Below are positions 6,405 to 49,559 of a stretch of 64,000 nt of DNA, piece after piece. Position numbers and translations under genes: made by a program. The notes beneath the pieces are model-generated. The model saw only the letters and a program-made list of their open reading frames with translations, had not been told where the DNA came from and searched no databases. The stretch's first letter is position 1, and each line of letters starts with the position of its first letter. Source of the DNA: Vibrio crassostreae (GTDB lineage Bacteria; Pseudomonadota; Gammaproteobacteria; Enterobacterales; Vibrionaceae); NCBI RefSeq assembly GCF_024347415.1, contig NZ_AP025478.1, forward strand, positions 62,001 through 126,000. Reading direction: 5' to 3'.

Positions 6405-6413
6405 TGTGACTCC

Positions 6414-7245: not shown

Positions 7246-7266
7246 CGTTCACACTCCTTTTTAGGA

Positions 7267-7318
7267 CATTGTTTTGTTCTTTTAAAAAAGCAAAACAATG
7301 GGCTCTCTTTCAAGAGCC
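7267..7318. other. Pair of hairpins upstream of the 122-residue gene
   Basis: Perfect 10-base arms CATTGTTTTG and CAAAACAATG lie at 7267-7276 and 7291-7300, followed at once by GGCTCT/AGAGCC arms at 7301-7306 and 7313-7318. They could be a regulator-binding site or a terminator for rightward transcription. Confidence 0.4.
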
Positions 7319-8200
7319 GTGCTACAAACTGGCTTGAGCATTCTTGTAGTAGAATGCGCACATCCAAAGGGTGTGGTGTCTGGTATTCCCAAGTAACTCT
7401 ATTTCACCACTCAACCAGCGTGCTTAATTGAGTAGAAAAACAGCCTTGGACGTCGCCCCAGAGAGGGCTCCTGAATTTGTTAGGCATATTACGCAGGCCT
7501 GCGCCCCTCTGCGGCGCTTTTTGCAATCGTGAAGGCAGCCCACCTTCGAGGCCATCTGAAATAAGATCTCAGACGGCAATATCATTCGTTACAGCGACCA
7601 ATTGGGAAAACGTTTGAGATGATCTTCTAATCGAAGTTTCCCTTCGCGCTTTTTGGCCCGTTCTGCTCTTTTCGCCGATAGCGTTAACGTTTTATTCGCG
7701 TTTGCTGGTTTTATTCGCGTTTGCTGAAAGACTAAAAGCGATACCGACTTCCTTGTTATCAACCCTACATTCTGATTTCAAATTCATACAAAATCCTTTT
7801 CAATTAAGAAAAACCGAAACGACCGAGTTCAAACTGAAATATCGCTGAACCCTCTAATCGTTCAAAAGTGACCCAGAATTATTAAACTTATTTGCTTTTG
7901 TGATGGGTCTCTCAATCTTGCAATTTAACATAACAAATATAATACGCACCAAATTAAACTTTTGATTTTAATGGTTATTTTATTAAATTTAACGTTGCCT
8001 TTGTTTTTAATTTTAAATAATTAATCCATTAATTATTTTTATTGGGATTCTTTGATGTGCTATAAATTTTTCAAGGTTATTTGTTATCTCATTGTTATTT
8101 ATCTGCTATTTTTGGTTACGCATTATATTTGTTATGTTAAGGGAAAAATCCCAAGGCACACTTAGCGTTTGAAATATCAGGCGACGACACGCTATACTTA
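7319..8200. other. Gene-free region with inverted and tandem repeats; possible oriT
   Basis: No credible gene is present in nearly 900 bases. At 7551-7577 there is an inverted repeat (GCCATCTGA and TCAGACGGC, one mismatch), preceded by a GAAGG/CCTTC hairpin at 7531-7547. At 7689-7726 a 19-base unit containing ATTCGCGTTTGCTG is repeated exactly twice in tandem. From about 7900 the DNA becomes very AT-rich. In F-like plasmids oriT lies beside the start of the tra operon, so this is the natural place to look, but no nic sequence was recognised. Confidence 0.3.
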
Positions 8201-8218
8201 CCTGAGGTCTATAAGGTT

Positions 8219-8269
8219 AAAACACACGACATTGCTTACTCCTGTAGTGCCCAATGTCGTGTGTTTTTT
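8219..8269 (+). terminator. Long perfect hairpin followed by a T run
   Basis: Sixteen-base perfect arms (8219-8234 and 8252-8267, core ACACACGACATTG) enclose a 17-base loop and end in TTTTTT. It ends a gene-free stretch that begins with a plausible promoter around 8110-8140, so a short structured RNA of roughly 120 nt may end here. The A and T runs on both sides mean it could also work on the minus strand. Confidence 0.6.
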
Positions 8270-8319
8270 CTAGGATTTAGAGTGTGTTAGAGGTGGTACT
8301 CTGACTATATAGCACTCGC

Positions 8320-8355
8320 AAAAAAGCCGTCTCCCCAACAGTAGACGGCTTTTTT
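8320..8355 (-). ncRNA. Hairpin, possible antisense copy-control RNA of the downstream repA-like gene
   Basis: Thirteen-base perfect arms (core AAAAAAGCCGTCT) enclose a 10-base loop. Read on the minus strand the loop contains TTGGGG, which includes a YUNR (U-turn) pattern like the loops of IncFII and IncI antisense RNAs, and the stem ends in a T run. It lies about 220 bases upstream of a RepA-like gene, where CopA-type RNAs are found. It may equally be a plain bidirectional terminator. Confidence 0.35.
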
Positions 8356-8463
8356 GTGTCTAAAAAACCAGCGTTTGATTTCTTTTCTCGGTTGAGATAG
8401 GTTGAAATTTCACCGTTTGGACGACCAATCCGAACAGCTCTAAAAACTGTTGGACCTCAAAAT

Positions 8464-8547
8464 ATGACTCCTTTGACTCAGCCTTGGCGTGGGCTAAGCC
8501 CAACCAACACATTCTCAATCACACCGCTTGTTTATCCCTCGGGATGA
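8464..8547 (+). CDS. Possible 27-codon leader peptide upstream of the repA-like gene
   Basis: A 27-codon frame (MTPLTQPWRGL...) ends at a TGA that overlaps, as ATGA, the ATG of a six-codon frame (MKCCVF, 8544-8564) lying just before the repA-like start. IncFII and IncI plasmids use a similar leader (tap, repY) whose translation opens the repA ribosome site. The ribosome site is weak and the peptide is not recognised, so the case rests on layout. Confidence 0.3.
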   Translation: MTPLTQPWRGLSPTNTFSITPLVYPSG

Positions 8548-8573
8548 AGTGCTGTGTGTTTTAAACGTGGACG

Positions 8574-9416
8574 GTGAATGTTATGAAGACGCCTGGACAC
8601 GACTCCTCCCCTCCCCCGCTCGATAAATCGAGTTACGATGCGGAGTATCGCCGTAAGCGTAAGGATCGGAAACTGGATTTGATTGAATTGTATCAACGTG
8701 TCGTTGACGAAGAGAACGCGCGGAACCCTAAGACGCCTTTTGAGATCGGATTCAAGTCTCGCCGGTTGCTTCGAAGCGGTAAGGTAGAAACCCTACCGCC
8801 AGAATACGCGCGGATCTTAAAAGGGTGTGAAGAATTTATTACCAACCCCAATCGTTTCCCGTCACTTAATGCATGGGGCGGTGAAGCGGTGAATAATGTG
8901 CAGTGTCGCACCTTAATTGCGAAAGTATTAGCGTGCACTCTGCCGAACACAGACCTCATTGGAGGGCGCATCGGTTTGCCCACCGAAGCGGGATTGAAAA
9001 CCATCAGCTACGACCAGCTTCAAGAAGATTATGCGTTGCGCTTTGGAGAGTTTATTTCGCCGAAGTCCTTTGCTAAAGCGGTGAAGTATCTAAAGCGTGC
9101 CAGCTATTTTCACAGTGAGCGGATCAATGTGTGTGTCGACCAAGACGAAGGGACGATACGCAGTGCACCCGCGTACAAACAGTTTACACCTCGCTTCTTT
9201 AATGACTTAAAAGTCGTGCGTTACACCAACATCAGCGAATTGATCCTCGCAACACGGGAACGCCAGACCAAGAAAGGACTGAGCTTTCAGTGGCTCTCTT
9301 TCCGTAAGATCGCGTCAGGGATACAAGAGATCTTCAATGCGTCAACGTTAAACACCTATGCGCAATCAACCTCAGCCTTCTTTAGTGAGTATCAACCGGA
9401 CCTGGCCCCTAATTAA
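8574..9416 (+). CDS. Probable plasmid replication initiator, IncFII RepA-like
   Basis: 280 residues from a GTG at 8574, or 277 from the ATG at 8583. The C-terminal half has the pattern TIRSAPAYKQFTPRFF followed by a basic helix, which resembles RepA/RepZ proteins of the IncFII and IncI families that melt the origin and load the host replisome. The N-terminus is very basic (YRRKRKDRK). Supporting context is the hairpin-rich leader upstream with overlapping small frames, and a gene-free stretch downstream that could hold the origin. The identification is by eye and is not certain; another plasmid DNA-binding protein remains possible. If correct, this is a second replicon besides the iteron system at 59-61 kb. 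Confidence 0.5.
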   Translation: MNVMKTPGHDSSPPPLDKSSYDAEYRRKRKDRKLDLIELYQRVVDEENARNPKTPFEIGFKSRRLLRSGKVETLPPEYARILKGCEEFITNPNRFPSLNAWGGEAVNNVQCRTLIAKVLACTLPNTDLIGGRIGLPTEAGLKTISYDQLQEDYALRFGEFISPKSFAKAVKYLKRASYFHSERINVCVDQDEGTIRSAPAYKQFTPRFFNDLKVVRYTNISELILATRERQTKKGLSFQWLSFRKIASGIQEIFNASTLNTYAQSTSAFFSEYQPDLAPN

Positions 9417-10138
9417 AAAGACACGTTCGTCTCCGCGAAGGCGGAGGGATCAGCACGTCTGAACCTTAGCCTACCCTGCTCTATCTCTCATTTTTCTGGT
9501 TTCTCCCAACAGGTTATTCAGGGTTATCTTGCGCACGCAGTCTCATTCGGAAGGGATTTCTCTATTCACGGTTTTTTATAAGAAAGGCCGTGCAAGAAAG
9601 GAAGGATAAAAAAGACCGCTAGAATGGCCATCAATAAGGGGCTGCGCTTATGAACACTACGTATAAAGATAAATATAATTAAATCAATAGAAAAATAAAT
9701 ACTTAAGGACAAGCAAAAAAAACGGCGCGGCAACCTTCTTTTGTCATACGACAGGAACCTTCTTCGATTAAACGCTGAGTCAGGTGGCTCCCTTTCATCA
9801 TCTCCTTACTTAACGTCCACCTTCATCCGGATGGTATGGCTTAGCAGGGCGAGGGTTTTTAGTGCTGTCAATATTGCAGCCTAAAAAGAGCAGTATGGCG
9901 CTGTGAGAGGCTTTCTTCTTAATTTCATTAAATGGTCACGGTTCTTATTCAGCCGCTTAAGCTTGCTGCTTTACAAAATGAATGGCCCCTTGAATACTAA
10001 GATTAGCGTTTCGATTTATCAGCGTCAGAGGGTAATTCAAACTCAAGGAACATAAATTAGTATTACTTCGAGGTGTTTCTCTTCTTACGCTGTTAGCCTA
10101 GAAAAACACATGGGTTACTAGAAGAGAAAAGGACGGAT
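9417..10138. other. Gene-free stretch downstream of the repA-like gene
   Basis: About 720 bases with no credible gene. Near 9430-9450 a GC-rich hairpin (CTCCGC, GAAG loop, GCGGAG) nested in ACGT-ended flanks may terminate the repA-like transcript. IncFII origins lie just downstream of repA, but no clear DnaA box was found. Confidence 0.3.
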
Positions 10139-25754: not shown

Positions 25755-26324
25755 ATGTCAAAATATCCATCTCATCAACTGCTTAAATCGACTTTCGAGA
25801 ACGCTCTTCTTCACCTTTACTTCAAAGTGAGCAGTTCTCGTGGCTTTGTTAATGAAAAACAACGAAATAAAATCATTATTGATTTCTTTAAGACAAGAAT
25901 TAAACAAGATCGATATCAGCCTATCAAGAAAAAGCTTAAAACGGTCTGTCTTATGAAGGATAAATTTGGCTCAATCGAAAAGCACTTAGAAAGGATTTTA
26001 ACTCAAAAATCAACGATAGATAGAAAAAGCGATATTGATAATCTTTATTTATTATTAGAGCTTTTTGAGAAGGTAGGTTTAGATACAAAACTTGTCGAAG
26101 AGACTCCCATCCAAGAAGTAGATGTGGTTTATCTCGATAGAAGACACATTGATAACTGCTTTGATAATGATAATCGCCTAATAGCGCCAATCTCCTTGTT
26201 CATACATACAAACGAGCTCAATAAGTTTACTCAATGCTTAACAGAGCAATTTTACTTCAAATTTGAGCAACATCACATGAATCAAGAGTTAGGAAGCTAT
26301 CACTACCAACTTCATCCAATTTAG
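25755..26324 (+). CDS. DUF2913-like protein
   Basis: 189 residues, basic and without membrane segments. The opening ENALLHLYFKVSSSRGFV and the following KKKLKTVCLMKDKFGSIEKHLERIL resemble DUF2913 proteins, a family I know mainly from Vibrio and other gamma-proteobacteria and whose function is unknown. The C-terminal part (LIAPISLFIHTNELNKF) is more divergent. The ATG follows a TCTATA stretch with no obvious ribosome site, and the gene is not coupled to its neighbours. Confidence 0.55.
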   Translation: MSKYPSHQLLKSTFENALLHLYFKVSSSRGFVNEKQRNKIIIDFFKTRIKQDRYQPIKKKLKTVCLMKDKFGSIEKHLERILTQKSTIDRKSDIDNLYLLLELFEKVGLDTKLVEETPIQEVDVVYLDRRHIDNCFDNDNRLIAPISLFIHTNELNKFTQCLTEQFYFKFEQHHMNQELGSYHYQLHPI

Positions 26325-26574
26325 GACTTCACGGATAATTTTTGATAGATAAAGTAGCGGGTACCGGTGTTGTGGCTTCACAACAATTTGGCTCTAATTA
26401 AATATATAGCTATTAAGCCCTCCACAATTTTAACCTTTGTAATTAAGAAAAATTCCAAATCGTATCATGTCTGCTCTTGCTCATAAGACAAACCTCCATC
26501 ACTCCAACCTAGCTTTATTATTTATATTTAATAGATATAAATAATAAATTTATCTCTTTCAACCCTAGAACCAT

Positions 26575-26589
26575 TGTTACATTATAACA
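26575..26589. promoter_or_regulatory. Zur-like operator upstream of the metallophore operon
   Basis: TGTTACATTATAACA is a near-perfect palindrome matching the core of gamma-proteobacterial Zur boxes (TGTTATANTATAACA) with one difference. It lies 27 bases before the first gene of the cnt-like operon, where a repressor would block the promoter. Zur control fits the known zinc-starvation regulation of opine metallophores. Confidence 0.65.
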
Positions 26590-26616
26590 GTTAATGTTCT
26601 ATTTGAGGTCGAGGTA

Positions 26617-27741
26617 ATGAAAGAATACCTTTTAAAAGTAAAAGCACTTTTTTGGGCAACTTTGGTTTTGGGTGACATGGCCTCTGCTTCTGCAGCTCTT
26701 CAGTTCAAAGACGTGCTCGGTAGAGACATCTCTTTAGAAAAGCCGGCAGAAAAAATTTTCCTAGGTTTTTATTTTGAGGATTACCTAGCGATCGCTGGAC
26801 CAGATGCTTACAAAAAAGTGGCTATTTTCCCAAGACACTCTTGGAAAGATTACCGTCAATCTCAATGGATCACCTATAAAAAAATCATTCCTGAGTTAGA
26901 AACGATTATTGATTCAGGTTCTCTTTATACAGGTACTTTTGATTTCGAAAAACTCTTGTTAACTAAACCTGATGTTGCACTTCTTGCGGCGTGGCAATAT
27001 CAATCCCTTGGTGAAAAAGTTGAAATACTTGAAAAGAATGGTATCAGAGTTGTCGTTGTAGACTTCAATGCTCAAACGCTTGAAAAACACGTCATTAGCA
27101 CACGTGTTATAGGCAGAGTAATGGGGACAGAAGGACGCGCTTCATCGATTGCAACGGAATACGAAAACACAGTAAACATGGTTAAACAACGTGTTACGAG
27201 GCATCTGGAAAACCACGCAGCACGCCGTGTGTATGTGGAAGCAGGTACAGGTGGACCAAATGAATACGGTAAATCTTACTCGACGACAATGTGGGGCAAC
27301 CTTTTGACAATGGCGGGGGCCGATAACATTGCCCATGGAATGTTTGAAGGCTCTGCCCACCTAACGCCTGAATATATCTTGAGTCAAGATCCAGAGGTGA
27401 TCTTTATATCCGGTGCTCACTGGGCTAAAAATAACGACAGCGCCCTGCTTGGTTTCAATAGCACAATGGAAGAAGCGCAAACTAGATACCGCCCCTACCT
27501 AAATCGAGCTGGCTGGAATCAACTGACGGCAGTTAAAAATGGTGACGTCTACGGTATATACCACTCGGGAACACGTACTATTTACGACCACGTTTTTTTG
27601 TTGTATCTAGCAAAGTCTATTTACCCAGAAGCATTTAAAGATATTGAACCTAAGAAATTGCACCAAGAATTTTTTCGGAACTACATGCCGCAAGCACTCA
27701 AAGGCACTTTCATGATTAAGGTGGGCGTAACTCATGAATGA
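26617..27741 (+). CDS. Periplasmic binding protein for metal-metallophore complex
   Basis: 374 residues with a signal peptide ending at SASA-AL. The fold is that of class III binding proteins (FepB/BtuF type): an N-terminal lobe opening with DVLGRDISLEKPAEKIF, a linking helix, and a C-terminal lobe with GNLLTMAGADNIAHG and DPEVIFISGAHW. Such proteins bind metal chelates in the periplasm and hand them to a FecCD permease. It is the first gene of a six-gene operon with biosynthetic genes for an opine metallophore, so the likely ligand is the metal-loaded opine. A GAGGTCGAGGTA ribosome site precedes the ATG, and a Zur-like site lies just upstream. The stop overlaps the permease start by eight bases. 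I recall the partner role being called cntP in Yersinia. Confidence 0.82.
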   Translation: MKEYLLKVKALFWATLVLGDMASASAALQFKDVLGRDISLEKPAEKIFLGFYFEDYLAIAGPDAYKKVAIFPRHSWKDYRQSQWITYKKIIPELETIIDSGSLYTGTFDFEKLLLTKPDVALLAAWQYQSLGEKVEILEKNGIRVVVVDFNAQTLEKHVISTRVIGRVMGTEGRASSIATEYENTVNMVKQRVTRHLENHAARRVYVEAGTGGPNEYGKSYSTTMWGNLLTMAGADNIAHGMFEGSAHLTPEYILSQDPEVIFISGAHWAKNNDSALLGFNSTMEEAQTRYRPYLNRAGWNQLTAVKNGDVYGIYHSGTRTIYDHVFLLYLAKSIYPEAFKDIEPKKLHQEFFRNYMPQALKGTFMIKVGVTHE

Positions 27742-28798
27742 AAGCATTAAAGCATCGTCTGACCTGAATCATTCCAGCGGCGCTATTTATCAAAGAATGC
27801 AGAAGCAAAGGATTAAGATTTTGCTAGGCGCTTTTCTGGCAACGAGTTTTTCCGCTTTATTCGATCTTGGTATTGGCTCATCGTGGCTAGGCATTGAACA
27901 AGTTGTTGAAGCCCTCCTAGGTGGTCCCTCTGGTGACAGCTTATCAACACTTATTGTCTGGCAACTTCGGTTACCCATCACTCTCACCTGTCTTATGGTT
28001 GGCGCCTCACTCGGCCTCGCTGGCGGTCTGATGCAAACCCTCTTAGCCAACCCACTTGCCAGTCCGTATACCCTTGGTATCTCTGCTGCTGCTGGATTTG
28101 GTGCAGCCATAGCTTTTTTAACCGGTTTTTCAGTATTTGGTTTGCATTGGTTAGGCGTGCCGTTTGCCGCTTTCTTGACATCTGGATTAGCGAGTATGGC
28201 GATCTACATAATTGGTCGCAGCCGACATATGGACGCAAAAATCCTGATTTTGGCAGGTATTGTCGTTCTCTTCTTTTTCCAGGCTTTACAGTCATTAATT
28301 CAATATTTGGCATCACCAGAAGTGCTGCAGCAAATTGTTTTTTGGTTATTTGGCAGTCTCCTGAAGGCGAGTTGGTTGTCCTTCTTTGTTTCAGGAGCCG
28401 TTTTCCTGTTCGGTTTGGTCTTTGCGTTATCTAAGGTATGGGCACTCACCGCCCTCACTTTAGGCGAAGAGCGTGCACTCGCCTTGGGAGTAAAGACCAG
28501 CAAGTTAAGACTACAGATGTTTTTACTGTGTTCCTTATTAACTGCAGGAGCAGTGTCGTTTGTCGGAACCATTGGTTTCATTGGTTTGGTTGCCCCTCAC
28601 CTAGCAAGAATGCTAATAGGCGAAGATCAGCGTTTCTACTTACCTTTGGCGGCATTAATGGGAGCGTTGCTTTTATGTATCTCGTCTCTTGTTGCTAAGT
28701 TGATTGTCCCAGGCACTATCATACCAATTGGTATCGTCACCTCCTTAGTCGGTGTACCGATCCTTCTTTATTTTCTGATAAGCAGGAGGTTTATCTAA
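27734..28798 (+). CDS. FecCD-type ABC permease
   Basis: 354 residues with about ten membrane helices. It carries family motifs: RLPITLTCLMVGASLGLAGG, QTLLANPLASPYTLGIS and GTIGFIGLVAPHLARML, the last being the coupling region to the ATPase. It forms the inner-membrane channel, probably as a homodimer, for import of a metal chelate delivered by the upstream binding protein. The ATG overlaps the previous gene by eight bases and the stop shares a base with the next start (TAATG), so translation is coupled across the importer genes. Confidence 0.9.
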   Translation: MNESIKASSDLNHSSGAIYQRMQKQRIKILLGAFLATSFSALFDLGIGSSWLGIEQVVEALLGGPSGDSLSTLIVWQLRLPITLTCLMVGASLGLAGGLMQTLLANPLASPYTLGISAAAGFGAAIAFLTGFSVFGLHWLGVPFAAFLTSGLASMAIYIIGRSRHMDAKILILAGIVVLFFFQALQSLIQYLASPEVLQQIVFWLFGSLLKASWLSFFVSGAVFLFGLVFALSKVWALTALTLGEERALALGVKTSKLRLQMFLLCSLLTAGAVSFVGTIGFIGLVAPHLARMLIGEDQRFYLPLAALMGALLLCISSLVAKLIVPGTIIPIGIVTSLVGVPILLYFLISRRFI

Positions 28799-29565
28799 TG
28801 ACGTCACTTTCAATAGAAAATCTTGCCGTCCCAATTGGAAGAAAACTCGTTTTAAAGAAGGTAGATGCCCACTTTTTGGGTGGCGAATTTGCCGCCATTT
28901 TAGGGCCCAATGGCGCAGGAAAAACGACATTACTCAAAGCTATCCTGGGCATCATTCCTTCTGATGGGAAGATTAATTCAAGTGGGGAGGACGGGCTGAG
29001 CTTACCGCTACAATCCTTCTCGTACCTATGTCAACTCAACAAATCTCCCTGCCAATTAACGGTTATTGAGTTTGTCTTGTTGGGCTTGGTTCATCAACTA
29101 AGTTGGAACATCACATTTGAACAAGAACAAAAAGCAGACGCCATCCTTAATTATCTAGGTTTGAGAAATCTCGCCCCTAGACAGTTTTCTCAACTAAGTG
29201 GTGGTCAGCAACAGCTGGTTTCACTGGCGCAAGCTCTTGTTGCTGAGCCCAAGGTCTTGCTCTTAGATGAACCAACAAGCGCCTTAGATCTCAAGCATCA
29301 AGTCCAAATTTTAGACCTTGTTCGTCAATATACTCGAGCCAAAAATATCATCACAATTGCGGTCCTACACGACCTCTCTCTCGCTGCTCGATACTGCGAC
29401 CATCTTCTCTTAATGAATGATGGTGAAGTCCAATATTGCGGTAAACCAAAAGATGTGCTCGATTCTGAAAGGTTGGGGCAAATCTATCAGATTCATGTGG
29501 ACGTAGGTTGTTGCGTTCATGGACATACCCACGTCACCCCAGTTCGAGCTCTTGAAACGGATTAG
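28798..29565 (+). CDS. ABC transporter ATPase with a Cys/His-rich tail
   Basis: 255 residues. Motifs in order: Walker A GPNGAGKT (36-43), signature LSGGQQQ (about 134), Walker B VLLLDEP (about 152) and the switch histidine in VLHDLSLAARY. It powers the FecCD permease encoded before it. The C-terminus is unusual: after the normal fold it ends in a short tail, DVGCCVHGHTHVTPVRAL, containing two cysteines and three histidines close together, which could bind zinc and sense cytoplasmic metal. That role is inference. Eight bases separate its stop from the CntL-like gene. Confidence 0.88.
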   Translation: MTSLSIENLAVPIGRKLVLKKVDAHFLGGEFAAILGPNGAGKTTLLKAILGIIPSDGKINSSGEDGLSLPLQSFSYLCQLNKSPCQLTVIEFVLLGLVHQLSWNITFEQEQKADAILNYLGLRNLAPRQFSQLSGGQQQLVSLAQALVAEPKVLLLDEPTSALDLKHQVQILDLVRQYTRAKNIITIAVLHDLSLAARYCDHLLLMNDGEVQYCGKPKDVLDSERLGQIYQIHVDVGCCVHGHTHVTPVRALETD

Positions 29566-29573
29566 GCATTCTT

Positions 29574-30353
29574 ATGACCATGAATAAAAGGCATTATCAA
29601 TTATTAGTTTCTCTATCCACGTTTGAATCTCAAATTCAAACCCTGACTCACTACAGTCTTGAAAATTGTGAATGTTTTGTCCTTTTGCAAGATAAAATTG
29701 ATGAGTTATGTGCTTGGATCTTGCAAGAAAATTCTAAAACCCTTAGCGATGATTTTGAGACGTTCCCTGAGTACGGACGTCTAATCAAGCAGCTTCGCGA
29801 AACTGCTGTAAAAGCTCTGTGTTTATTGGAAAAACATCAGTCTCAGTGTGCCAGAGACCATCAAATCGACATCAGCGAATATTTATACCAACTTTCTGAA
29901 AACACAAAAATTGAACTAAAAAAAGCAGGAATTGAAAGCAACTCTCGAGTCCTGTTTATTGGCTCAGGGTCCTATCCGGTTTCTGCTTTTACTATATCTC
30001 AGATCACAGGCGCTCTCGTGCACGGTATCGACCTGGATGAGCAAGCAGTGAAAATGGCCAACCAACTCAACTTATCAACCACTTTTAGCTGCAAAGATCT
30101 AATCACTGAGTTTGCCTCTTTCCGGCCAACTCATGTTGTAGTAGCCTCTTTAGTGGAACATAAATGGGAGCTACTCAGACAGCTTAAACCTCATCTTAAC
30201 CACTCTCACCGAGTATTAGTTCGATTCGGTAATGGTTTAAAGTCCGCCTTCAATTACCCTTTCAACCCAAACCTAATTGATGGGTGGGAAACACAACAGA
30301 TCCATAACGATGCAGCGATATATAACACCGTCTTAATGGAGCGCGCAAAATGA
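29574..30353 (+). CDS. cntL: Nicotianamine-synthase-like aminobutanoyltransferase (CntL type)
   Basis: 259 residues. The C-terminal half has a methyltransferase-like SAM-binding fold with VLFIGSGSYPVSAFTIS near residue 125 and HGIDLDEQAVKMA after it, as in bacterial nicotianamine-synthase-like enzymes. CntL transfers one aminobutanoate group from S-adenosylmethionine to an amino acid, histidine in the known staphylopine, pseudopaline and yersinopine pathways. The N-terminal half is helical, with a cysteine-rich patch. No histidine racemase gene (cntK) is present in the operon, so an L-histidine backbone, as in pseudopaline and yersinopine, would be expected. The stop overlaps the dehydrogenase start by four bases. 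Confidence 0.8.
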   Translation: MTMNKRHYQLLVSLSTFESQIQTLTHYSLENCECFVLLQDKIDELCAWILQENSKTLSDDFETFPEYGRLIKQLRETAVKALCLLEKHQSQCARDHQIDISEYLYQLSENTKIELKKAGIESNSRVLFIGSGSYPVSAFTISQITGALVHGIDLDEQAVKMANQLNLSTTFSCKDLITEFASFRPTHVVVASLVEHKWELLRQLKPHLNHSHRVLVRFGNGLKSAFNYPFNPNLIDGWETQQIHNDAAIYNTVLMERAK

Positions 30354-31624
30354 CTCTTTCATTAGGAAAAGTGTTAATCGTAGGCACAGGGCCAGCCGCA
30401 TTTCAGACAGCAAAAATCATCAGAAACCAGTGCGAGCAACTTGGGTTAGTAAACCGCTCATCAGAGCGCTGGCAGCCGATGTTCGAAAGCTTACACAACG
30501 AACGTATTGCGCATATTATCGCTGCCAAATCCTCTTTGAAACGAATGGCAGGGCAGGTGATATTTGATGCGGTTTTTGAAGATTTACGCGATGTAAGCGG
30601 ACAATGGGATACGTTGGTTCTGGCCACCCCATCTCATGCTTATTCAGCGGTTCTATTGGCTTTACCTAAATCGTGTTTGAGTTCCGCAAAAATAGTAGTC
30701 CTCATTTCATCCTTATTTGGGGGGCACCGGATTGTGAAAGGCTTGTTTTCAGAACTGAATTTAACTCCCAACGTATTGATATTTTCCAATTACTTTGCGG
30801 CCACTAAATTTATAACGGAACAAGCTGGCGTTCGTGTCCTTACCAAAGCGGTTAAAAAACGTATTTATGCTTACTCAAGTAAAGAAAAATGCCCTGTCCT
30901 AGAGCTACTGACTCAAACTTTAGCGGGTATCGGTGTTGAAGTTGTCGAGTTGGAAAATGGGTTTAGCGTAGAAGGACGAAACATTACCTCTTTCGTTCAT
31001 CCCGCATTTTTTATTACCCCTTTCTCGCTCAATCATATCTTAAGTGAGACGAGAGAAGTTAAGTACATGTACAAACTTTTCCCTGAGGGACCGATCACAA
31101 CCGAAACCATCCACATTTTGGTTGAGCTATGGCGCGATATATCGAGATTGATGCTTCACTTTAACGGAACATCATTTAACTTGTTACAATTTCTCAATGA
31201 TGACAACTATCCTGTGCATCCAGAAACCATTCGTCGTCGTCAAATTGAGCAGTTTATGTCGCTCACTCCAATAGCGCAGGAATATTTGGTTTACGTCCGA
31301 TACAGCGCGATTCTGATCGATCCTTTTTCTAAGCCGGATGAAAATGGGTGCTACTTCAACTTCTCTGCCGTGCCCTATGCCCAAGGTAAGGTGGAAAAAG
31401 GCAAGTTGTCTTTACCTCGAATACCTAAAGAAGATATACAGAATCTTTACTGGCTTCAAGTCTTAGGCAGAGCGCATGGGATTGCCTTACCGAGCGTTAA
31501 CCGTGTGCTAGGCATATTCGAATCTTGGTTAAGTAGCTCTCAACTCCCTCACCATTTGATTGAAGAGTCCCGCACTCAAGCGCACCAATACCTTGGTTGG
31601 GTGCGTCTATCATACGACCTTTAA
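30350..31624 (+). CDS. cntM: Opine metallophore dehydrogenase (CntM type)
   Basis: 424 residues, the usual length for staphylopine-type opine dehydrogenases. The N-terminus has a Rossmann NAD(P)H site with GTGPAAFQTAKII (residues 12-24). The middle contains the HPAFFITPFSLN and FNGTSFNLLQFLND stretches of the family, and the C-terminal dimer region reads AQEYLVYVRYSAILIDPF. The enzyme reductively condenses the CntL product with an alpha-keto acid: pyruvate gives staphylopine or yersinopine, alpha-ketoglutarate gives pseudopaline. Which one is used here cannot be read off. It overlaps CntL by four bases and is followed after 11 bases by the exporter. A fragment of a second, related gene lies at 53.7 kb. 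Confidence 0.85.
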   Translation: MTLSLGKVLIVGTGPAAFQTAKIIRNQCEQLGLVNRSSERWQPMFESLHNERIAHIIAAKSSLKRMAGQVIFDAVFEDLRDVSGQWDTLVLATPSHAYSAVLLALPKSCLSSAKIVVLISSLFGGHRIVKGLFSELNLTPNVLIFSNYFAATKFITEQAGVRVLTKAVKKRIYAYSSKEKCPVLELLTQTLAGIGVEVVELENGFSVEGRNITSFVHPAFFITPFSLNHILSETREVKYMYKLFPEGPITTETIHILVELWRDISRLMLHFNGTSFNLLQFLNDDNYPVHPETIRRRQIEQFMSLTPIAQEYLVYVRYSAILIDPFSKPDENGCYFNFSAVPYAQGKVEKGKLSLPRIPKEDIQNLYWLQVLGRAHGIALPSVNRVLGIFESWLSSSQLPHHLIEESRTQAHQYLGWVRLSYDL

Positions 31625-31635
31625 AGAAACCCATC

Positions 31636-32481
31636 ATGAACAACGGTGTAGCGTTAACTATATTTTCTGCGTTCATTTTTAGTGTCATGAACGCACTTAT
31701 TAAAGCGGCCAGTTTGACGATTCCAAGCTCTGAAATTGTCTTCTTCCGAAGCGCAATAGGAACCGTTCTGATTTTAGGGTTAATGTGGAAAGCGAGTATC
31801 AGGTTTTCTACCACGGGCATACCAATGCTTTTGCTTCGTGGCCTGTTTGGGGCGTTTTATCTGCTCGCTTTTGTGTACGCGATTACCCACATGCCGCTAG
31901 CGGACGCCGTGATTTTGGCTTACCTGTCCCCGTTCTTCGTTATATTACTTTCCAACCTAATTTTGGGAGAAAAAGTCCCTAAAAAAGTAGCATTCCTTTT
32001 TCCGCTCGCTTTGGTTGGAGTTACCTTAATTGTAAATCCATTTAGCTTCGACACATTTAATTTGTATGCCCTCTCAGGGGTGGCGAGTGCTTTTTTTGCG
32101 GCGGCTGCCTCTATCACTATTCGTCACCTGAGTAAGAGGCACCATATTTACGAGATTGTGTTTTATTTTCTTTTCACTTCGATGTTGGTATCCGGTTACT
32201 TGATGAGAGATGAGTTTGTGGTTCCACAGGGCATTGCGTGGATTCATCTAATTGCCATTGGTCTTGTTTCGCTCATTGGGCAAATGTTCCTAACAAAGGC
32301 ATTCAGTCATGAAAACGCCGCTGTAGTTGCAGTCACCCGCTATATCGGCTTGGTTTTCAATATACTTTGGGGGGTTATTTTTTGGTATGAAATCCCTAGT
32401 TGGATGAGCACATGTGGCGTTATTATCATAATAACAACATCTATTTCCCTCTCGCTAAAGAAAAAAAATATTATTCCATGA
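31636..32481 (+). CDS. cntI: EamA-family exporter (CntI type)
   Basis: 281 residues with ten membrane segments in two EamA repeats (first ends near VNPF, second covers IWGVIF-type motifs near the C-terminus). In Pseudomonas, CntI of this family exports newly made pseudopaline from the cytoplasm. It is the last gene of the operon, starting 11 bases after the dehydrogenase. The start at 31636 was chosen because a longer reading begins inside cntM. No outer-membrane TonB-dependent receptor follows within the window, so re-uptake across the outer membrane would need a receptor encoded elsewhere. Confidence 0.82.
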   Translation: MNNGVALTIFSAFIFSVMNALIKAASLTIPSSEIVFFRSAIGTVLILGLMWKASIRFSTTGIPMLLLRGLFGAFYLLAFVYAITHMPLADAVILAYLSPFFVILLSNLILGEKVPKKVAFLFPLALVGVTLIVNPFSFDTFNLYALSGVASAFFAAAASITIRHLSKRHHIYEIVFYFLFTSMLVSGYLMRDEFVVPQGIAWIHLIAIGLVSLIGQMFLTKAFSHENAAVVAVTRYIGLVFNILWGVIFWYEIPSWMSTCGVIIIITTSISLSLKKKNIIP

Positions 32482-32699
32482 TCTGAGTACCACCTAGAAA
32501 ACAAACCAATCAAAGAGAGTAGGGAAAGATAAGGTCGACTGACTTCCAATAAATTATTAGTATTTTATAAGATATATAGTCATATTTAAAGACGAGCCTT
32601 TGACACAAGGGGACAAGGGGTTATCATGAAATCTAGAAAACGAATATTTCTTATTTTGTAGATTGGTGTGCTTTAAAAAGAAGCAAGGAGGTTTTAACA

Positions 32700-32921
32700 A
32701 TGGTTTATAGATTAGCACTATTTCGCCATCAGCACCCTATTTTAGGGGCAGGATGCGAATTATTTGTAGTCCTGATAGCTTTTTTATCGATAACCTTACC
32801 GCTGATATATGAGGAAAGCTTGTTGGTGCTGGGAGTATCTTCAGGACTTTCCATCATCTGCTTTACTCTATTTTTAATTTTTGCCAAAAGTGACAAGATC
32901 CGAAGGTCTCTGCCTAACTAA
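32700..32921 (+). CDS. Small membrane protein
   Basis: 73 residues with two hydrophobic segments (about 19-38 and 42-63) and a basic C-terminus (KSDKIRRSLPN). The start is convincing: AGCAAGGAGGTTTTAACA precedes the ATG. No family is recognised. It lies 218 bases after the metallophore exporter in the same direction; whether it is co-transcribed is unclear. Confidence 0.55.
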   Translation: MVYRLALFRHQHPILGAGCELFVVLIAFLSITLPLIYEESLLVLGVSSGLSIICFTLFLIFAKSDKIRRSLPN

Positions 32922-33067
32922 GTTAAATAAAGAAAAAACTATTGCCCTCCTCATGATGTGAGAAGTAATAAAAAGTTCATTTATAATTAAATTAACCATA
33001 AATAATTAGAATTTTAAATTAGATATTTATTTAATGAAATTCATTTCAATTATAATGAACTAAGACA

Positions 33068-36000
33068 ATGCTTAAGCGTATAATAACTATCCTCCATTTT
33101 TTCATCCTAATAACCCTAATAGGATGCAATCCGGAAGAAGTAGAAAATCCAACCATTGAACCAACGGCAATATTAACACGAATTGATATTATTCCCTCAC
33201 CTCTAAAAACACGAGGAACAAGTCAGTTAAAATTAGCTAAAGGTAACAAGCAAGCATTCATCGCCACAGGTCATTACTCTGATGGATCATCAAAGGTACT
33301 ATCAAATTTAAGCTTAAGCGCGTGGCGTTCAAGTAACGAGGAGACCGGGTTTTTTTCTAAATCGGGCGTATTTTCAACGGGGAATACAACTGGGGATGTC
33401 ACTGTTTATCTAATTAAAGACAACGTCACCAGTAACACGGTGAGCGTGGAGGTCAGCGCGGCGGTCATCACCACGCTGGCGGTCACACCGCCAGCGAGTG
33501 AGTTGGCAATGGGTCAAATGAGACCACTCACCGCTATCGCAACCTACAGTGACGGCACTTCCTCTGATGTGAGCGATTCCGTCACCTGGACCTCGGAGGC
33601 TCTAAGTACCGCGACAGTAACGCCGACTGGCCGACTGGCTGGCGTCGACGTCGGACACACAACGATAACCGCCACTAAAGACAACGTCACCAGTAACACG
33701 GTGAGCGTGGAGGTCAGCGCGGCGGTCATCACCACGCTGGCGGTCACACCGCCAGCGAGTGAGTTGGCAATGGGTCAAATGAGACCACTCACCGCTATCG
33801 CAACCTACAGTGACGGCACTTCCTCTGATGTGAGCGATTCCGTCACCTGGACCTCGGAGGCTCTAAGTACCGCGACAGTAACGCCGACTGGCCGACTGGC
33901 TGGCGTCGACGTCGGACACACAACGATAACCGCCACTAAAGACAACGTCACCAGTAACACGGTGAGCGTGGAGGTCAGCGCGGCGGTCATCACCACGCTG
34001 GCGGTCACACCGCCAGCGAGTGAGTTGGCAATGGGTCAAATGAGACCACTCACCGCTATCGCAACCTACAGTGACGGCACTTCCTCTGATGTGAGCGATT
34101 CCGTCACCTGGACCTCGGAGGCTCTAAGTACCGCGACAGTAACGCCGACTGGCCGACTGGCTGGCGTCGACGTCGGACACACAACGATAACCGCCACTAA
34201 AGACAACGTCACCAGTAACACGGTGAGCGTGGAGGTCAGCGCGGCGGTCATCACCACGCTGGCGGTCACACCGCCAGCGAGTGAGTTGGCAATGGGTCAA
34301 ATGAGACCACTCACCGCTATCGCAACCTACAGTGACGGCACTTCCTCTGATGTGAGCGATTCCGTCACCTGGACCTCGGAGGCTCTAAGTACCGCGACAG
34401 TAACGCCGACTGGCCGACTGGCTGGCGTCGACGTCGGACACACAACGATAACCGCCACTAAAGACAACGTCACCAGTAACACGGTGAGCGTGGAGGTCAG
34501 CGCGGCGGTCATCACCACGCTGGCGGTCACACCGCCAGCGAGTGAGTTGGCAATGGGTCAAATGAGACCACTCACCGCTATCGCAACCTACAGTGACGGC
34601 ACTTCCTCTGATGTGAGCGATTCCGTCACCTGGACCTCGGAGGCTCTAAGTACCGCGACAGTAACGCCGACTGGCCGACTGGCTGGCGTCGACGTCGGAC
34701 ACACAACGATAACCGCCACTAAAGACAACGTCACCAGTAACACGGTGAGCGTGGAGGTCAGCGCGGCGGTCATCACCACGCTGGCGGTCACACCGCCAGC
34801 GAGTGAGTTGGCAATGGGTCAAATGAGACCACTCACCGCTATCGCAACCTACAGTGACGGCACTTCCTCTGATGTGAGCGATTCCGTCACCTGGACCTCG
34901 GAGGCTCTAAGTACCGCGACAGTAACGCCGACTGGCCGACTGGCTGGCGTCGACGTCGGACACACAACGATAACCGCCACTAAAGACAACGTCACCAGTA
35001 ACACGGTGAGCGTGGAGGTCAGCGCGGCGGTCATCACCACGCTGGCGGTCACACCGCCAGCGAGTGAGTTGGCAATGGGTCAAATGAGACCACTCACCGC
35101 TATCGCAACCTACAGTGACGGCACTTCCTCTGATGTGAGCGATTCCGTCACCTGGACCTCGGAGGCTCTAAGTACCGCGACAGTAACGCCGACTGGCCGA
35201 CTGGCTGGCGTCGACGTCGGACACACAACGATAACCGCCACTAAAGACAACGTCACCAGTAACACGGTGAGCGTGGAGGTCAGCGCGGCGGTCATCACCA
35301 CGCTGGCGGTCACACCGCCAGCGAGTGAGTTGGCAATGGGTCAAATGAGACCACTCACCGCTATCGCAACCTACAGTGACGGCACTTCCTCTGATGTGAG
35401 CGATTCCGTCACCTGGACCTCGGAGGCTCTAAGTACCGCGACAGTAACGCCGACTGGCCGACTGGCTGGCGTCGACGTCGGACACACAACGATAACCGCC
35501 ACTAAAGACAACGTCACCAGTAACACGGTGAGCGTGGAGGTCAGCGCGGCGGTCATCACCACGCTGGCGGTCACACCGCCAGCGAGTGAGTTGGCAATGG
35601 GTCAAATGAGACCACTCACCGCTATCGCAACCTACAGTGACGGCACTTCCTCTGATGTGAGCGATTCCGTCACCTGGACCTCGGAGGCTCTAAGTACCGC
35701 GACAGTAACGCCGACTGGCCGACTGGCTGGCGTCGACGTCGGACACACAACGATAACCGCCACTAAAGACAACGTCACCAGTAACACGGTGAGCGTGGAG
35801 GTCAGCGCGGCGGTCATCACCACGCTGGCGGTCACACCGCCAGCGAGTGAGTTGGCAATGGGTCAAATGAGACCACTCACCGCTATCGCAACCTACAGTG
35901 ACGGCACTTCCTCTGATGTGAGCGATTCCGTCACCTGGACCTCGGAGGCTCTAAGTACCGCGACAGTAACGCCGACTGGCCGACTGGCTGGCGTCGACGT

Positions 36001-37555
36001 CGGACACACAACGATAACCGCCACTAAAGACAACGTCACCAGTAACACGGTGAGCGTGGAGGTCAGCGCGGCGGTCATCACCACGCTGGCGGTCACACCG
36101 CCAGCGAGTGAGTTGGCAATGGGTCAAATGAGACCACTCACCGCTATCGCAACCTACAGTGACGGCACTTCCTCTGATGTGAGCGATTCCGTCACCTGGA
36201 CCTCGGAGGCTCTAAGTACCGCGACAGTAACGCCGACTGGCCGACTGGCTGGCGTCGACGTCGGACACACAACGATAACCGCCACTAAAGACAACGTCAC
36301 CAGTAACACGGTGAGCGTGGAGGTCAGCGCGGCGGTCATCACCACGCTGGCGGTCACACCGCCAGCGAGTGAGTTGGCAATGGGTCAAATGAGACCACTC
36401 ACCGCTATCGCAACCTACAGTGACGGCACTTCCTCTGATGTGAGCGATTCCGTCACCTGGACCTCGGAGGCTCTAAGTACCGCGACAGTAACGCCGACTG
36501 GCCGACTGGCTGGCGTCGACGTCGGACACACAACGATAACCGCCACTAAAGACAACGTCACCAGTAACACGGTGAGCGTGGAGGTCAGCGCGGCGGTCAT
36601 CACCACGCTGGCGGTCACACCGCCAGCGAGTGAGTTGGCAATGGGTCAAATGAGACCACTCACCGCTATCGCAACCTACAGTGACGGCACTTCCTCTGAT
36701 GTGAGCGATTCCGTCACCTGGACCTCGGAGGCTCTAAGTACCGCGACAGTAACGCCGACTGGCCGACTGGCTGGCGTCGACGTCGGACACACAACGATAA
36801 CCGCCACTAAAGACAACGTCACCAGTAACACGGTGAGCGTGGAGGTCAGCGCGGCGGTCATCACCACGCTGGCGGTCACACCGCCAGCGAGTGAGTTGGC
36901 AATGGGTCAAATGAGACCACTCACCGCTATCGCAACCTACAGTGACGGCACTTCCTCTGATGTGAGCGATTCCGTCACCTGGACCTCGGAGGCTCTAAGT
37001 ACCGCGACAGTAACGCCGACTGGCCGACTGGCTGGCGTCGACGTCGGACACACAACGATAACCGCCACTAAAGACAACGTCACCAGTAACACGGTGAGCG
37101 TGGAGGTGTATATATGTAGGAACACTGGTGTTTCATGTACTGATGTATTCGAGGTTGGCAATGGGAAGTTGTTTACCAATTCACCATCAAGAATCGCTCT
37201 ACATAGCATCGGAGGAAGTGTAAATAATGGTTTTACGCAAGAAATCGGAACTTCTGGGCCTGCTGGAAATTTTGTTTGGTTCAATTGGGCGAATGCAAAC
37301 AGATTATGTGCCACCTATAGTAACGAGAGTTTAGCAGGACGTACTAATTGGCGTTTGGCAACAAGAAATGAGTTAAAGTTAGAGCTCTTCAATACATACG
37401 GCAATATGTTCAACGCGCGCGGTTGGCCAGTCAGGCTCAACTACTGGTCAAGCACAAGCCGTGGACCTGGCTTTTTAAATGTAAGCCTCAGGGGGGGCAA
37501 TGAAGGAGCGAGTCTAGAAGAAGAATTGTACGCGTCCTGCGTCTCAGTTCCTTAA
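33068..37555 (+). CDS. Surface lipoprotein with 14 identical Ig-like repeats and an Lcl-type C-terminal domain
   Basis: 1495 residues. A signal peptide ends in the lipobox TLIGC, so the protein is lipid-anchored at Cys20. A divergent Ig-like (BIG2) domain occupies about residues 35-116. Then come fourteen copies of an 87-residue BIG2 unit (about 117-1346), each with LTAIATYSDGTSSDVSD, WTSEALSTATV and HTTITATKDN. The C-terminal 145 residues form a DUF1566/Lcl-like domain: FVWFNWANANRLC, TNWRLATRNELKLEL and YWSSTS. Such proteins usually extend an adhesive or binding domain away from the cell. The repeat DNA is visibly GC-richer than its AT-rich flanks, suggesting separate origin or recent amplification. 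A terminator hairpin follows. Confidence 0.85.
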   Translation: MLKRIITILHFFILITLIGCNPEEVENPTIEPTAILTRIDIIPSPLKTRGTSQLKLAKGNKQAFIATGHYSDGSSKVLSNLSLSAWRSSNEETGFFSKSGVFSTGNTTGDVTVYLIKDNVTSNTVSVEVSAAVITTLAVTPPASELAMGQMRPLTAIATYSDGTSSDVSDSVTWTSEALSTATVTPTGRLAGVDVGHTTITATKDNVTSNTVSVEVSAAVITTLAVTPPASELAMGQMRPLTAIATYSDGTSSDVSDSVTWTSEALSTATVTPTGRLAGVDVGHTTITATKDNVTSNTVSVEVSAAVITTLAVTPPASELAMGQMRPLTAIATYSDGTSSDVSDSVTWTSEALSTATVTPTGRLAGVDVGHTTITATKDNVTSNTVSVEVSAAVITTLAVTPPASELAMGQMRPLTAIATYSDGTSSDVSDSVTWTSEALSTATVTPTGRLAGVDVGHTTITATKDNVTSNTVSVEVSAAVITTLAVTPPASELAMGQMRPLTAIATYSDGTSSDVSDSVTWTSEALSTATVTPTGRLAGVDVGHTTITATKDNVTSNTVSVEVSAAVITTLAVTPPASELAMGQMRPLTAIATYSDGTSSDVSDSVTWTSEALSTATVTPTGRLAGVDVGHTTITATKDNVTSNTVSVEVSAAVITTLAVTPPASELAMGQMRPLTAIATYSDGTSSDVSDSVTWTSEALSTATVTPTGRLAGVDVGHTTITATKDNVTSNTVSVEVSAAVITTLAVTPPASELAMGQMRPLTAIATYSDGTSSDVSDSVTWTSEALSTATVTPTGRLAGVDVGHTTITATKDNVTSNTVSVEVSAAVITTLAVTPPASELAMGQMRPLTAIATYSDGTSSDVSDSVTWTSEALSTATVTPTGRLAGVDVGHTTITATKDNVTSNTVSVEVSAAVITTLAVTPPASELAMGQMRPLTAIATYSDGTSSDVSDSVTWTSEALSTATVTPTGRLAGVDVGHTTITATKDNVTSNTVSVEVSAAVITTLAVTPPASELAMGQMRPLTAIATYSDGTSSDVSDSVTWTSEALSTATVTPTGRLAGVDVGHTTITATKDNVTSNTVSVEVSAAVITTLAVTPPASELAMGQMRPLTAIATYSDGTSSDVSDSVTWTSEALSTATVTPTGRLAGVDVGHTTITATKDNVTSNTVSVEVSAAVITTLAVTPPASELAMGQMRPLTAIATYSDGTSSDVSDSVTWTSEALSTATVTPTGRLAGVDVGHTTITATKDNVTSNTVSVEVSAAVITTLAVTPPASELAMGQMRPLTAIATYSDGTSSDVSDSVTWTSEALSTATVTPTGRLAGVDVGHTTITATKDNVTSNTVSVEVYICRNTGVSCTDVFEVGNGKLFTNSPSRIALHSIGGSVNNGFTQEIGTSGPAGNFVWFNWANANRLCATYSNESLAGRTNWRLATRNELKLELFNTYGNMFNARGWPVRLNYWSSTSRGPGFLNVSLRGGNEGASLEEELYASCVSVP
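33416..37107 (+). repeat. Tandem array: 14 full 261-bp repeats plus a 38-bp partial copy
   Basis: The unit begins AAAGACAACGTCACC and recurs every 261 bases without visible base differences; 3692 bases equal 14 x 261 + 38. The frame is preserved (87 codons). Such an array can expand or contract by recombination, and its copy number in an assembly should be treated with care. Confidence 0.95.
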
Positions 37556-47254: not shown

Positions 47255-47286
47255 ATACTGTTTATCATCCCTATATGGAGGCAGAA

Positions 47287-48486
47287 ATGGACAACCAACA
47301 CACTACAACCACATTTCAAGCGCTTAAAACCGGTGCAGACGCTTACATTCAACGTCGAAATCAACGTTTACTGGCCAATCATCGCAAAGAGCTGCGTAAT
47401 TTTACCCGAGCAGAGGCCTCGGCTTACCTTGGCATAGATGCTAAAACGCTTGATCGGTACGTTACTGCCGCGGCGATTGATCCTCGTCGTCATGAAGACT
47501 CACAGTGGTCGATCGATATTGCAGAAATGTACAAGGTACGTAACTTACTGCCAGACAATCTACGTAAAGACGCTAAGTTCATGCGCAGTAAGCAGCAAAA
47601 AACGCAAGTGATGGTTATCCAGAACCAAAAAGGCGGGGTTGGAAAAACCGTTTCTGCCGCGACTATTGCATCAGGTTTAGCGACCGAGTTTCATCAAGAA
47701 TACCGTGTTGGTCTAATTGACATGGATGGCCAAGCCACACTTTCGATGTATTACGCACCCGAAGCTGAGCAAGAAGGTAACTTATCTATTGGTGATTTGA
47801 TGATGAAAACCTTCGACCTTGATGAAGGTGAAACCGTTGAACAAGTCATCTCTGAAGCCTTTCTTGAAACGACTATCCCAAACTTACGCATTTTACCTGC
47901 CGCACAAAGTGACCGAGCGATGGAAGGTTGGTTTCATGAGCAAGTGTTCGGCCAAACCTTAGCTTCACCTTATTCACTACTAAAAGACATCATCGATAGT
48001 GTTAAAGACGAGTTCGATATCATCATTATCGACACCCCACCCTCTCTGGGCTATGCGACCTTTAACGCATATTTTGCGGCAACGAATGTGGTTTTTCCGT
48101 TATCGATTACCGAGAACGACATTGATGCGACCTGCTCTTACTTCAGTTACATCCCGCAGGTGTGGGCACTGTTAGAGAACGCTAACCATGAAGGCTACGA
48201 CTTCATGAAAATATTACTGACAAACCACCGTGATAGTTCAACCACGACCGAGTTAATGAATAACCTATACGATCAGTTCTCTCCTTACTTGTACTCAAAA
48301 GAGTTTAAGCACAGTGAAGCCGTCCGTCAGTCATCTTCCCTACTCTCAACGGTGTTTGATATGTCAAAAAGTGAATACCCGAAAAGTAAAGCGACGTTCC
48401 AAGGGGCGCAACAAAACAGCTATGAAGTGACAAGCCAGATCTTGCGCGATATTCTAAATGTTTGGCGTGAACAGGAGAACAAATAA
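47287..48486 (+). CDS. parA: ParA, partition ATPase (type Ia)
   Basis: 399 residues from the ATG at 47287, which has GGAGG five bases upstream; the ATG at 47275 would lie in front of that site. An N-terminal helix-turn-helix (TRAEASAYLGIDAKTLDRYV) precedes a deviant Walker A, KGGVGKT, near residue 115, a Walker B-like IIIIDTPPSLG and the LTNHRDSSTTTE stretch. This is the P1/P7 class of large ParA, which segregates plasmid copies and represses its own operon. The stop shares a base with the parB start. Confidence 0.93.
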   Translation: MDNQHTTTTFQALKTGADAYIQRRNQRLLANHRKELRNFTRAEASAYLGIDAKTLDRYVTAAAIDPRRHEDSQWSIDIAEMYKVRNLLPDNLRKDAKFMRSKQQKTQVMVIQNQKGGVGKTVSAATIASGLATEFHQEYRVGLIDMDGQATLSMYYAPEAEQEGNLSIGDLMMKTFDLDEGETVEQVISEAFLETTIPNLRILPAAQSDRAMEGWFHEQVFGQTLASPYSLLKDIIDSVKDEFDIIIIDTPPSLGYATFNAYFAATNVVFPLSITENDIDATCSYFSYIPQVWALLENANHEGYDFMKILLTNHRDSSTTTELMNNLYDQFSPYLYSKEFKHSEAVRQSSSLLSTVFDMSKSEYPKSKATFQGAQQNSYEVTSQILRDILNVWREQENK

Positions 48487-49559
48487 TGGCAAAGAAACGT
48501 GGTGGTAGCCCTTTAGGCAATGCTCCTGGTTCAGAGCAAGCGCAACAATCGGCGGCCAAAGCAAACTTAGACACTCTGACAAATCAACTCAGCACTGAGC
48601 TAGAAAAAAGTGGGCAGAACGCTGAAAATTACCTTAGAACAAAGTTTGGATTAGAGTCCGTTGGTCAAAAAATGGTTTGGCAATTAGCTTCTGGTTCAAC
48701 AGCGACCTTTAATGAAGTGACATTGTCATACGATCAGGTTAAGCAGAACTCATTTGTGACATTTGATGTTAATGGTCGTGACCAATCTTTGCTAACCAAA
48801 GAATCATTGGAAGATTTGAACTCATTAGAGTTTCAACAGTTCTATCCAGCGGTTGGCCGAGAAGTCGATGGACAGATTGATGTTCTGGATGGCTCTCGCC
48901 GCCGCGCTTGGTTCTTACTTCAAGAAGGTCGCGTAAAAAAATTCCGAATCCTCGTCACCCAAGACGAACTGTCTACCGCCGATGCCAAAGCTCTGGCTAA
49001 GCAGCTTCAAACCGCCAAAGAGCACAACCAACGTGAGATTGGCTTACAGTGTCAAACTTTGATGCAGAACGGTGAGATCACTCAAGAAGATACGGCAAAA
49101 ATTTTAAATATTAGCCGTCAAGCGGTCGGCCGTGCACTGAAAGCAGCTAGTATTGACAGTAAACTGATTGCCCTATTCCCTGTTGTCAATGACTTGTCTC
49201 ATACTGATTATTCACTCTTGGCTAAGGTGATGAAAACCTTTGCCGATGACAAACAGGCTTTGAGCAGTTTCATAAAAAAAATAGCCAGTAAAGTTGTCAA
49301 TGCTCAAGCTGAGCAGAGCCAAGAAGACACTAAAGACGTTCTGATTACTTGTATTAAAACTGAGCTAAAGATCGTTGAAGCCAAACAAGATTCAGACAAA
49401 TCGACCCTTACCTCTCTAGCAGAATTCGACAGTAAGGGAATGTTTGCTCGTAAGCGTGTTAAAGGCCGCAACTTCTCATATGAGTTTGGCCGTTTGTCGA
49501 AGGATATCCAAGTTGAACTCGATCACGCTATCCAATCAGTGTTAGGCAAACATCAATAA
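48486..49559 (+). CDS. parB: ParB, centromere-binding partition protein
   Basis: 357 residues. It contains a ParB N-terminal domain (FYPAVGREVDGQIDVLDGSRRRAW, with the GSRRR motif in place of GERR), a helix-turn-helix (QEDTAKILNISRQAVGRAL) and a C-terminal dimer domain. ParB binds parS sites and stimulates ParA. It is translationally coupled to parA. Within the gene, 49291-49315 matches in 24 of 25 positions a half of the 39-base palindrome found at 54.56 and 57.6 kb, so the gene may contain or have given rise to a parS-like sequence. Confidence 0.92.
   Translation: MAKKRGGSPLGNAPGSEQAQQSAAKANLDTLTNQLSTELEKSGQNAENYLRTKFGLESVGQKMVWQLASGSTATFNEVTLSYDQVKQNSFVTFDVNGRDQSLLTKESLEDLNSLEFQQFYPAVGREVDGQIDVLDGSRRRAWFLLQEGRVKKFRILVTQDELSTADAKALAKQLQTAKEHNQREIGLQCQTLMQNGEITQEDTAKILNISRQAVGRALKAASIDSKLIALFPVVNDLSHTDYSLLAKVMKTFADDKQALSSFIKKIASKVVNAQAEQSQEDTKDVLITCIKTELKIVEAKQDSDKSTLTSLAEFDSKGMFARKRVKGRNFSYEFGRLSKDIQVELDHAIQSVLGKHQ

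Follow-up and report, generated by a model that had tools for sequence, protein, structure and literature searches.

Which metal does the six-gene operon at positions 26617-32481 (+ strand) of a 64,000-nucleotide stretch of Vibrio crassostreae DNA serve, what does it make, and can it pass between hosts? The stretch (the window) spans positions 62001-126000 of contig NZ_AP025478.1 (C3; 237,546 bp) in the four-contig, 5.80 Mb genome GCF_024347415.1. An initial annotation, made from the sequence alone, had proposed an opine metallophore operon, borne on a plasmid and equipped with a FecCD importer, that scavenges zinc and possibly makes a new opine. Our analysis partly supports that interpretation. 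With a probability of about 0.82, we take the locus to be a complete zincophore operon of the opine type, carried by a conjugative Vibrio plasmid, controlled by Zur and making pseudopaline or a very close relative.

All six open reading frames (ORFs) are present, intact and coupled where the initial annotation had placed them, and their families agree with it. They encode a periplasmic binding protein (P; 26617-27741; Pfam Peripla_BP_2, PF01497, 1.4e-18), a FecCD permease (Q; 27734-28798; PF01032, 2.7e-84), an ABC ATPase (R; 28798-29565; ABC_tran, PF00005, 1.1e-27), a CntL-type nicotianamine-synthase-like enzyme (L; 29574-30353), a CntM-type opine dehydrogenase (M; 30350-31624) and an EamA exporter (I; 31636-32481; PF00892, 5.2e-29). 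Spacings between the genes are -8, -1, +8, -4 and +11 bp, counting ATG 31636 as the start of the EamA gene, for which an upstream TTG at 31597 had been listed; the six genes are presumably read as one transcript. The two biosynthetic assignments, on which the initial annotation had staked its interpretation, hold: the 29574 product matches the Pfam NAS family (PF03059, 3.3e-07), the NCBIfam CntL model (1.7e-30) and, in a sequence comparison with solved structures, staphylococcal CntL (4.6e-21), and the 30350 product matches the staphylopine dehydrogenase family (PF10100, 8.3e-125; NCBIfam staphylopine_DH, 6.7e-102). The cntL gene lies directly upstream of cntM, and the import (FecCD, Peripla_BP_2, ABC_tran) and export (EamA) systems lie within six ORFs of cntM.

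The operon encodes no histidine racemase. Just one gene of the genome matches PF01678, a 286-aa ORF of the DAP-epimerase fold; it is on contig C1 and is presumably DapF, so the earlier remark that no racemase is nearby stands. By its gene content, the operon is classed as a racemase-less FecCD/EamA opine zincophore cluster. The genes appear to be maintained: against plasmid p1 of V. lentus, dN/dS for the six genes is 0.10-0.18, indicating purifying selection, and against the plasmid of V. cyclitrophicus ZF270, where changes are few, it is 0.14-0.34; neither comparison shows internal stops. The host genome has one full CntM gene, besides a remnant of a second type described below, and one CntL gene, and thus the plasmid carries the only complete cntL/cntM set of its host.

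The likely product was read from the dehydrogenase. Position 150 of SaCntM has been used to predict the choice of keto acid (PMC7438024), and in an alignment with the solved dehydrogenases Ala151 of the enzyme studied here falls on that position. Among the solved enzymes, pseudopaline dehydrogenase has Ala there, the residue of the alpha-ketoglutarate type, whereas the staphylopine and yersinopine dehydrogenases have Asp. A database search gave 291 CntM relatives among 8000 scored candidates, 120 of which were listed; the residue was compared in 12 of these 120 and in 19 rows from the loci collected here. Each of the 15 primary CntM rows from the loci has Ala, as do nine of the 12 database rows; Thr is found in the other three database rows and in all four locus rows of a second dehydrogenase type (CntM2). 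With no racemase in the operon or, apart from the PF01678 ORF, in the genome, L-histidine is the expected amino acid substrate. Ala151 and the missing racemase together point to pseudopaline, or a compound very near it, as a likelier product than yersinopine or a new opine.

A new opine, as the initial annotation had suggested, would require an amino acid or keto acid other than those expected here, or a subsequent modification, and we regard it as improbable. The characterised enzymes are only distant relatives of CntM, many clusters have been argued to make unique compounds (PMC7438024), and a gene for a GNAT acetyltransferase lies on the same plasmid, all of which would suit such a product; the uniform Ala of the primary CntM rows speaks against it, as does the lack of a modifying gene in the operon. 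Slightly less probable still is a yersinopine-type product from the same genes, with CntM using pyruvate. The operon does share its FecCD importer and EamA exporter with the Yersinia cluster, and PMC7438024 describes the Pseudomonas cluster as having no inner-membrane importer. However, Ala151 replaces the Asp of the pyruvate-using type, and the best solved relative of CntM is the pseudopaline dehydrogenase (281 bits, 1.5e-82), followed by staphylopine dehydrogenase (at most 261 bits) and then by yersinopine dehydrogenase, whose match falls into two pieces (201 bits).

For the metal, the evidence lies upstream of the first gene. The 15-mer TGTTACATTATAACA at 26575-26589 (+ strand) ends 27 bp 5' of the first ATG; no other site in the window matches the Zur-type operator pattern with two or fewer mismatches. 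An identical 15-mer sits between the divergent znuA and znuC genes of the host, likewise 27 bp 5' of the znuC frame. Across the whole genome, seven sites match the pattern with at most one mismatch, as against none for the reversed pattern. Five of the six others lie beside znuA/znuC, DUF2607-zrgA, a zur-like Fur-family gene, ribA and a ShyA-type endopeptidase gene, where the site overlaps the start of the longest frame. Published Zur targets of V. cholerae include znuABC, zrg, ribA and shyB, and the site printed for that species, TGTTATGTTATAACA, also precedes the Motiliproteus and Photobacterium operons (PMC8248653, PMC6381278 for V. cholerae). The region upstream of the operon has a site with at most one mismatch in 10 of 16 related operons, with two in four and with three in two, while 29 of 4800 shuffled upstream regions come within two mismatches. 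The operon is therefore probably zinc-regulated through a predicted Zur-type operator, and the zinc role that the initial annotation had deduced from the gene types gains support. The least probable alternative, an operon mainly for iron, nickel, cobalt or copper, could appeal to an importer family best known from iron-siderophore uptake (by its NCBIfam names) and to the fact that opine metallophores bind several metals, but an operator identical to the znu site of the host and similar sites before related operons argue against it.

How the loaded opine crosses the outer membrane is less evident. The pseudopaline cluster of Pseudomonas aeruginosa includes the TonB receptor gene cntO, and the operon studied here has no receptor gene. 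Ten PF00593 matches to TonB receptors occur in the genome, none of them on C3, in line with the earlier statement that no such receptor is nearby. In the 300 bp 5' of the longest ATG frame at each of the ten loci, no Zur-type site comes within three mismatches, a scan in which the first genes of possible receptor operons were not treated separately. For so small a molecule, a porin is a possible route.

These elements suggest the following scheme. When zinc drops, the chromosomal Zur would leave 26575-26589 and the operon would be transcribed. CntL would join the aminobutanoate part of S-adenosylmethionine to L-histidine, and CntM would condense the resulting product reductively with alpha-ketoglutarate, which would yield pseudopaline or a compound very near it. 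Once exported by the EamA protein, the opine would return as its zinc complex, crossing the outer membrane by way of a porin or of a receptor whose gene lies elsewhere; the last step inward would fall to the binding protein, permease and ATPase.

Several observations weigh against this scheme. The residue at position 150 tunes the choice of keto acid and does not fix it (PMC7438024). No dedicated outer-membrane receptor emerged, either as a PF00593 match on C3 or through Zur-type sites at the PF00593 loci. The Pfam NAS score of CntL (30.4 bits) is barely over the cut-off of 27.1, and its NCBIfam CntL score (106.2 bits) is under the curated equivalog cut-off of 350; the staphylopine_DH score of CntM (341.4 bits) is likewise under its curated equivalog cut-off of 675, although missing these staphylopine-specific cut-offs is expected of a relative other than the staphylopine enzyme. 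As for the operator, one of the seven strong sites precedes rluE, which is not known as a zinc gene, and once two mismatches are allowed the genome shows no excess of the pattern (13 sites versus 22 for the reversed pattern). The sites before the operons of genomes G115 and G117 are those with three mismatches, and the 16 operons are related, so their operator sites are not independent. A sigma-70 scan of 26320-33100 found nothing resembling a promoter 5' of the first gene; over that interval, the counts of sigma-70 sites (11 versus 13.8 in shuffled sequence) and terminators (8 versus 6.5) are both within the shuffle range.

The replicon that carries the operon is apparently a large, self-transmissible plasmid, judged by its genes; contigs C1 (3.48 Mb) and C2 (1.95 Mb) look like the two chromosomes. 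Within the window, Pfam matches identify the F-type transfer genes TraC, TraV, TraB (TrbI), TraK, TraE and TraL (114-6404, - strand) and the partition genes ParA and ParB (47275-49559, + strand). Elsewhere on C3 are TraG_N, TraH, TraF, TraN, TrbC, TraD and MOBF relaxases, and relaxase, coupling protein and mating-pair genes of the F type (MOBF/MPF_F) are thus found on one replicon, which supports the earlier placing of the operon on a conjugative element in an apparent Vibrionaceae host. The transfer genes fall into two diverged F-type regions at 38.9-71.8 kb and 144.7-184.0 kb of C3, whose main blocks are 83-93% identical. The first holds TraG_N, TraH, TraF, TraN and TrbC and takes in positions 1-9849 of the window. 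TraI and TraD occur twice on the contig, as do TraC, TraV, TraB, TraK, TraE and TraL, and we read C3 as a cointegrate of two related plasmids; C3 may be capable of actual conjugation. A long, internally repetitive stretch occupies 199.8-210.1 kb of C3. Further TrwC-type relaxase genes lie on contigs C4 (16410-17309) and C2 (281842-282735), and the host thus holds several F-type elements.

Close relatives of the operon are also plasmid-borne. Of 72,556 plasmid records, 11 have a DNA match to the operon, two of them over at least 80% of its length. The plasmid of V. cyclitrophicus ZF270 (NZ_CP135178.1; 97.8% DNA identity) and V. lentus plasmid p1 (NZ_AP025501.1; 83.5%) both carry the same six genes in the same order and are typed conjugative (MOBF/MPF_F); the plasmid of the window differs from them in having two transfer regions. 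A 1.69 Mb replicon of Photobacterium sp. GJ3 matches over 48% of the operon at 67% identity. At the protein level, CntM relatives occur in 10 of the 72,556 records, namely these three, four from Arsenophonus nasoniae and one each from Paenibacillus, Priestia and Staphylococcus epidermidis, so plasmid-borne opine metallophore loci are rare but not unique. The one A. nasoniae record that was opened, of the four, has a plasmid-borne operon with the same six-gene order; its CntM is 35.5% identical and the plasmid is typed mobilizable (MOBP).

In a survey of 227 genomes of the genus, a subset of all Vibrio, 16 have a CntM-family match (1e-10). From protein identity and, for the genomes it covers, the operon comparison, we read 14 of these as carrying a primary cntM and two (G204 and G213) as carrying CntM2 only. 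The order P-Q-R-L-M-I, which the initial annotation had likened to that of Yersinia, is common to the 16 distinct gammaproteobacterial operons that were compared, including that of the window, and to the Arsenophonus plasmid that was opened; the comparison omits genome G116, and G069 and G113 were not refetched but taken as the V. hepatarius and V. pectenicida loci L007 and L008. In Alkalihalobacillus algicola, L-M-I stands with no P-Q-R next to it. In genome G099 (L074 8139-9391), the CntM match passes from one frame to another near its start, where the gene may be frameshifted or diverged.

A CntM tree of 42 rows (23 of the 120 listed relatives and 19 rows from the loci) groups the enzyme of the window with the ZF270 enzyme and a V. 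chagasii protein (100/100), which are joined next by V. lentus, V. qingdaonensis, V. atlanticus, V. fortis and further rows. This wider group joins Motiliproteus (99/89) and stands apart from the hepatarius-pectenicida-neptunius and G115-G117-G175 lineages, with weak support for the deeper forks (81/81, 84/80). On this tree, the placement fits acquisition through a mobile element, a statement that extends to neither direction nor donor.

The vibrio cluster type itself is already published: opine-like zincophore clusters ("cluster 6") were mapped in vibrios by Morey and Kehl-Fie in 2020 (PMC7438024), and plasmid copies are named in RefSeq records, a precedent that the initial annotation overlooked. 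The operon resembles cluster 6 in its vibrio host, in cntL directly before cntM, in its FecCD importer and EamA exporter and in having no racemase; the word "plasmid" appears nowhere in the main text of that paper. With the P. aeruginosa pseudopaline system it shares the Ala at the keto-acid position, the lack of a racemase, the EamA exporter and the closest characterised CntM, but has a FecCD importer that the Pseudomonas cluster lacks. The Yersinia yersinopine system, in which the cluster likewise has FecCD, EamA and cntL directly before cntM (PMC7438024) and no racemase, differs in its dehydrogenase. A literature search, mostly without subscription papers, returned no title reporting a plasmid-borne Vibrio zincophore, and a candidate paper, PMC11196684, concerns a bacillopaline-like cluster in its available text. 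The interest of the operon therefore lies in its location on a transferable plasmid, its operator and its lineage, its kind of gene set being already known. If such operons are Zur-wired on conjugative plasmids, zinc scavenging would become a trait that coastal vibrios can gain and lose, and pairs of strains with and without the plasmid would offer a test of questions about public goods and cheating.

The plasmid also carries traces of a second opine dehydrogenase. A 210-bp remnant of the CntM2 type (53741-53950, + strand; 50% identity to CntM residues 305-373) lies 22 kb downstream of the operon and is followed by its GNAT partner (54112-54540, + strand; PF00583, 1.5e-05), which is 84% identical to the gene beside CntM2 in relatives. 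On the 5' side is a gene for a beta-eliminating lyase (51913-53361, - strand), named tryptophanase in the records of relatives. Whereas the window retains a remnant, ZF270 and V. lentus p1 keep an open CntM2 gene at the same place, with tnaA and GNAT, as do genomes G125, G213 and G204 (CntM2 and GNAT loci: L013 32928-34707; L067, L075, L076 and L085). Thr at position 150 and the downstream acetyltransferase match this protein to the CntM2 of cluster 7, a known orphan dehydrogenase (PMC7438024). G213 and G204, draft genomes of about 440 and 360 contigs, carry CntM2 and the acetyltransferase gene and have no CntL match at 0.001, and no Zur-type site with three or fewer mismatches lies in the 500 bp 5' of the five CntM2 copies of V. 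lentus p1, G125, G213, G204 and ZF270. As far as draft genomes allow, these results argue against CntM2 as a variant of the zincophore step, and in these two drafts CntM2 probably does not act on the product of CntL, which touches an open question in the published literature. More speculatively, and as an idea that we hold only tentatively, a family of self-transmissible Vibrio plasmids may spread, as an accessory trait to which they are dedicated, a zincophore operon of non-Vibrio origin that uses the Zur of each host, together with a second, CntL-independent opine pathway (CntM2 and the acetyltransferase) whose product would not be a classical zincophore.

The tnaA-like gene has a counterpart in V. 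ostreicida (L010 2351-3745; 77% identical) that lies directly upstream of the cnt operon, whereas that of the window adjoins the CntM2 remnant. An Rfam search of 22000-56000 in the window gave no matches. Downstream of the operon, a 1495-aa ORF with Big_2 domains (33068-37555) is built on a 261-bp unit repeated 14.1 times over 33415-37107, with 100% identity between the copies.

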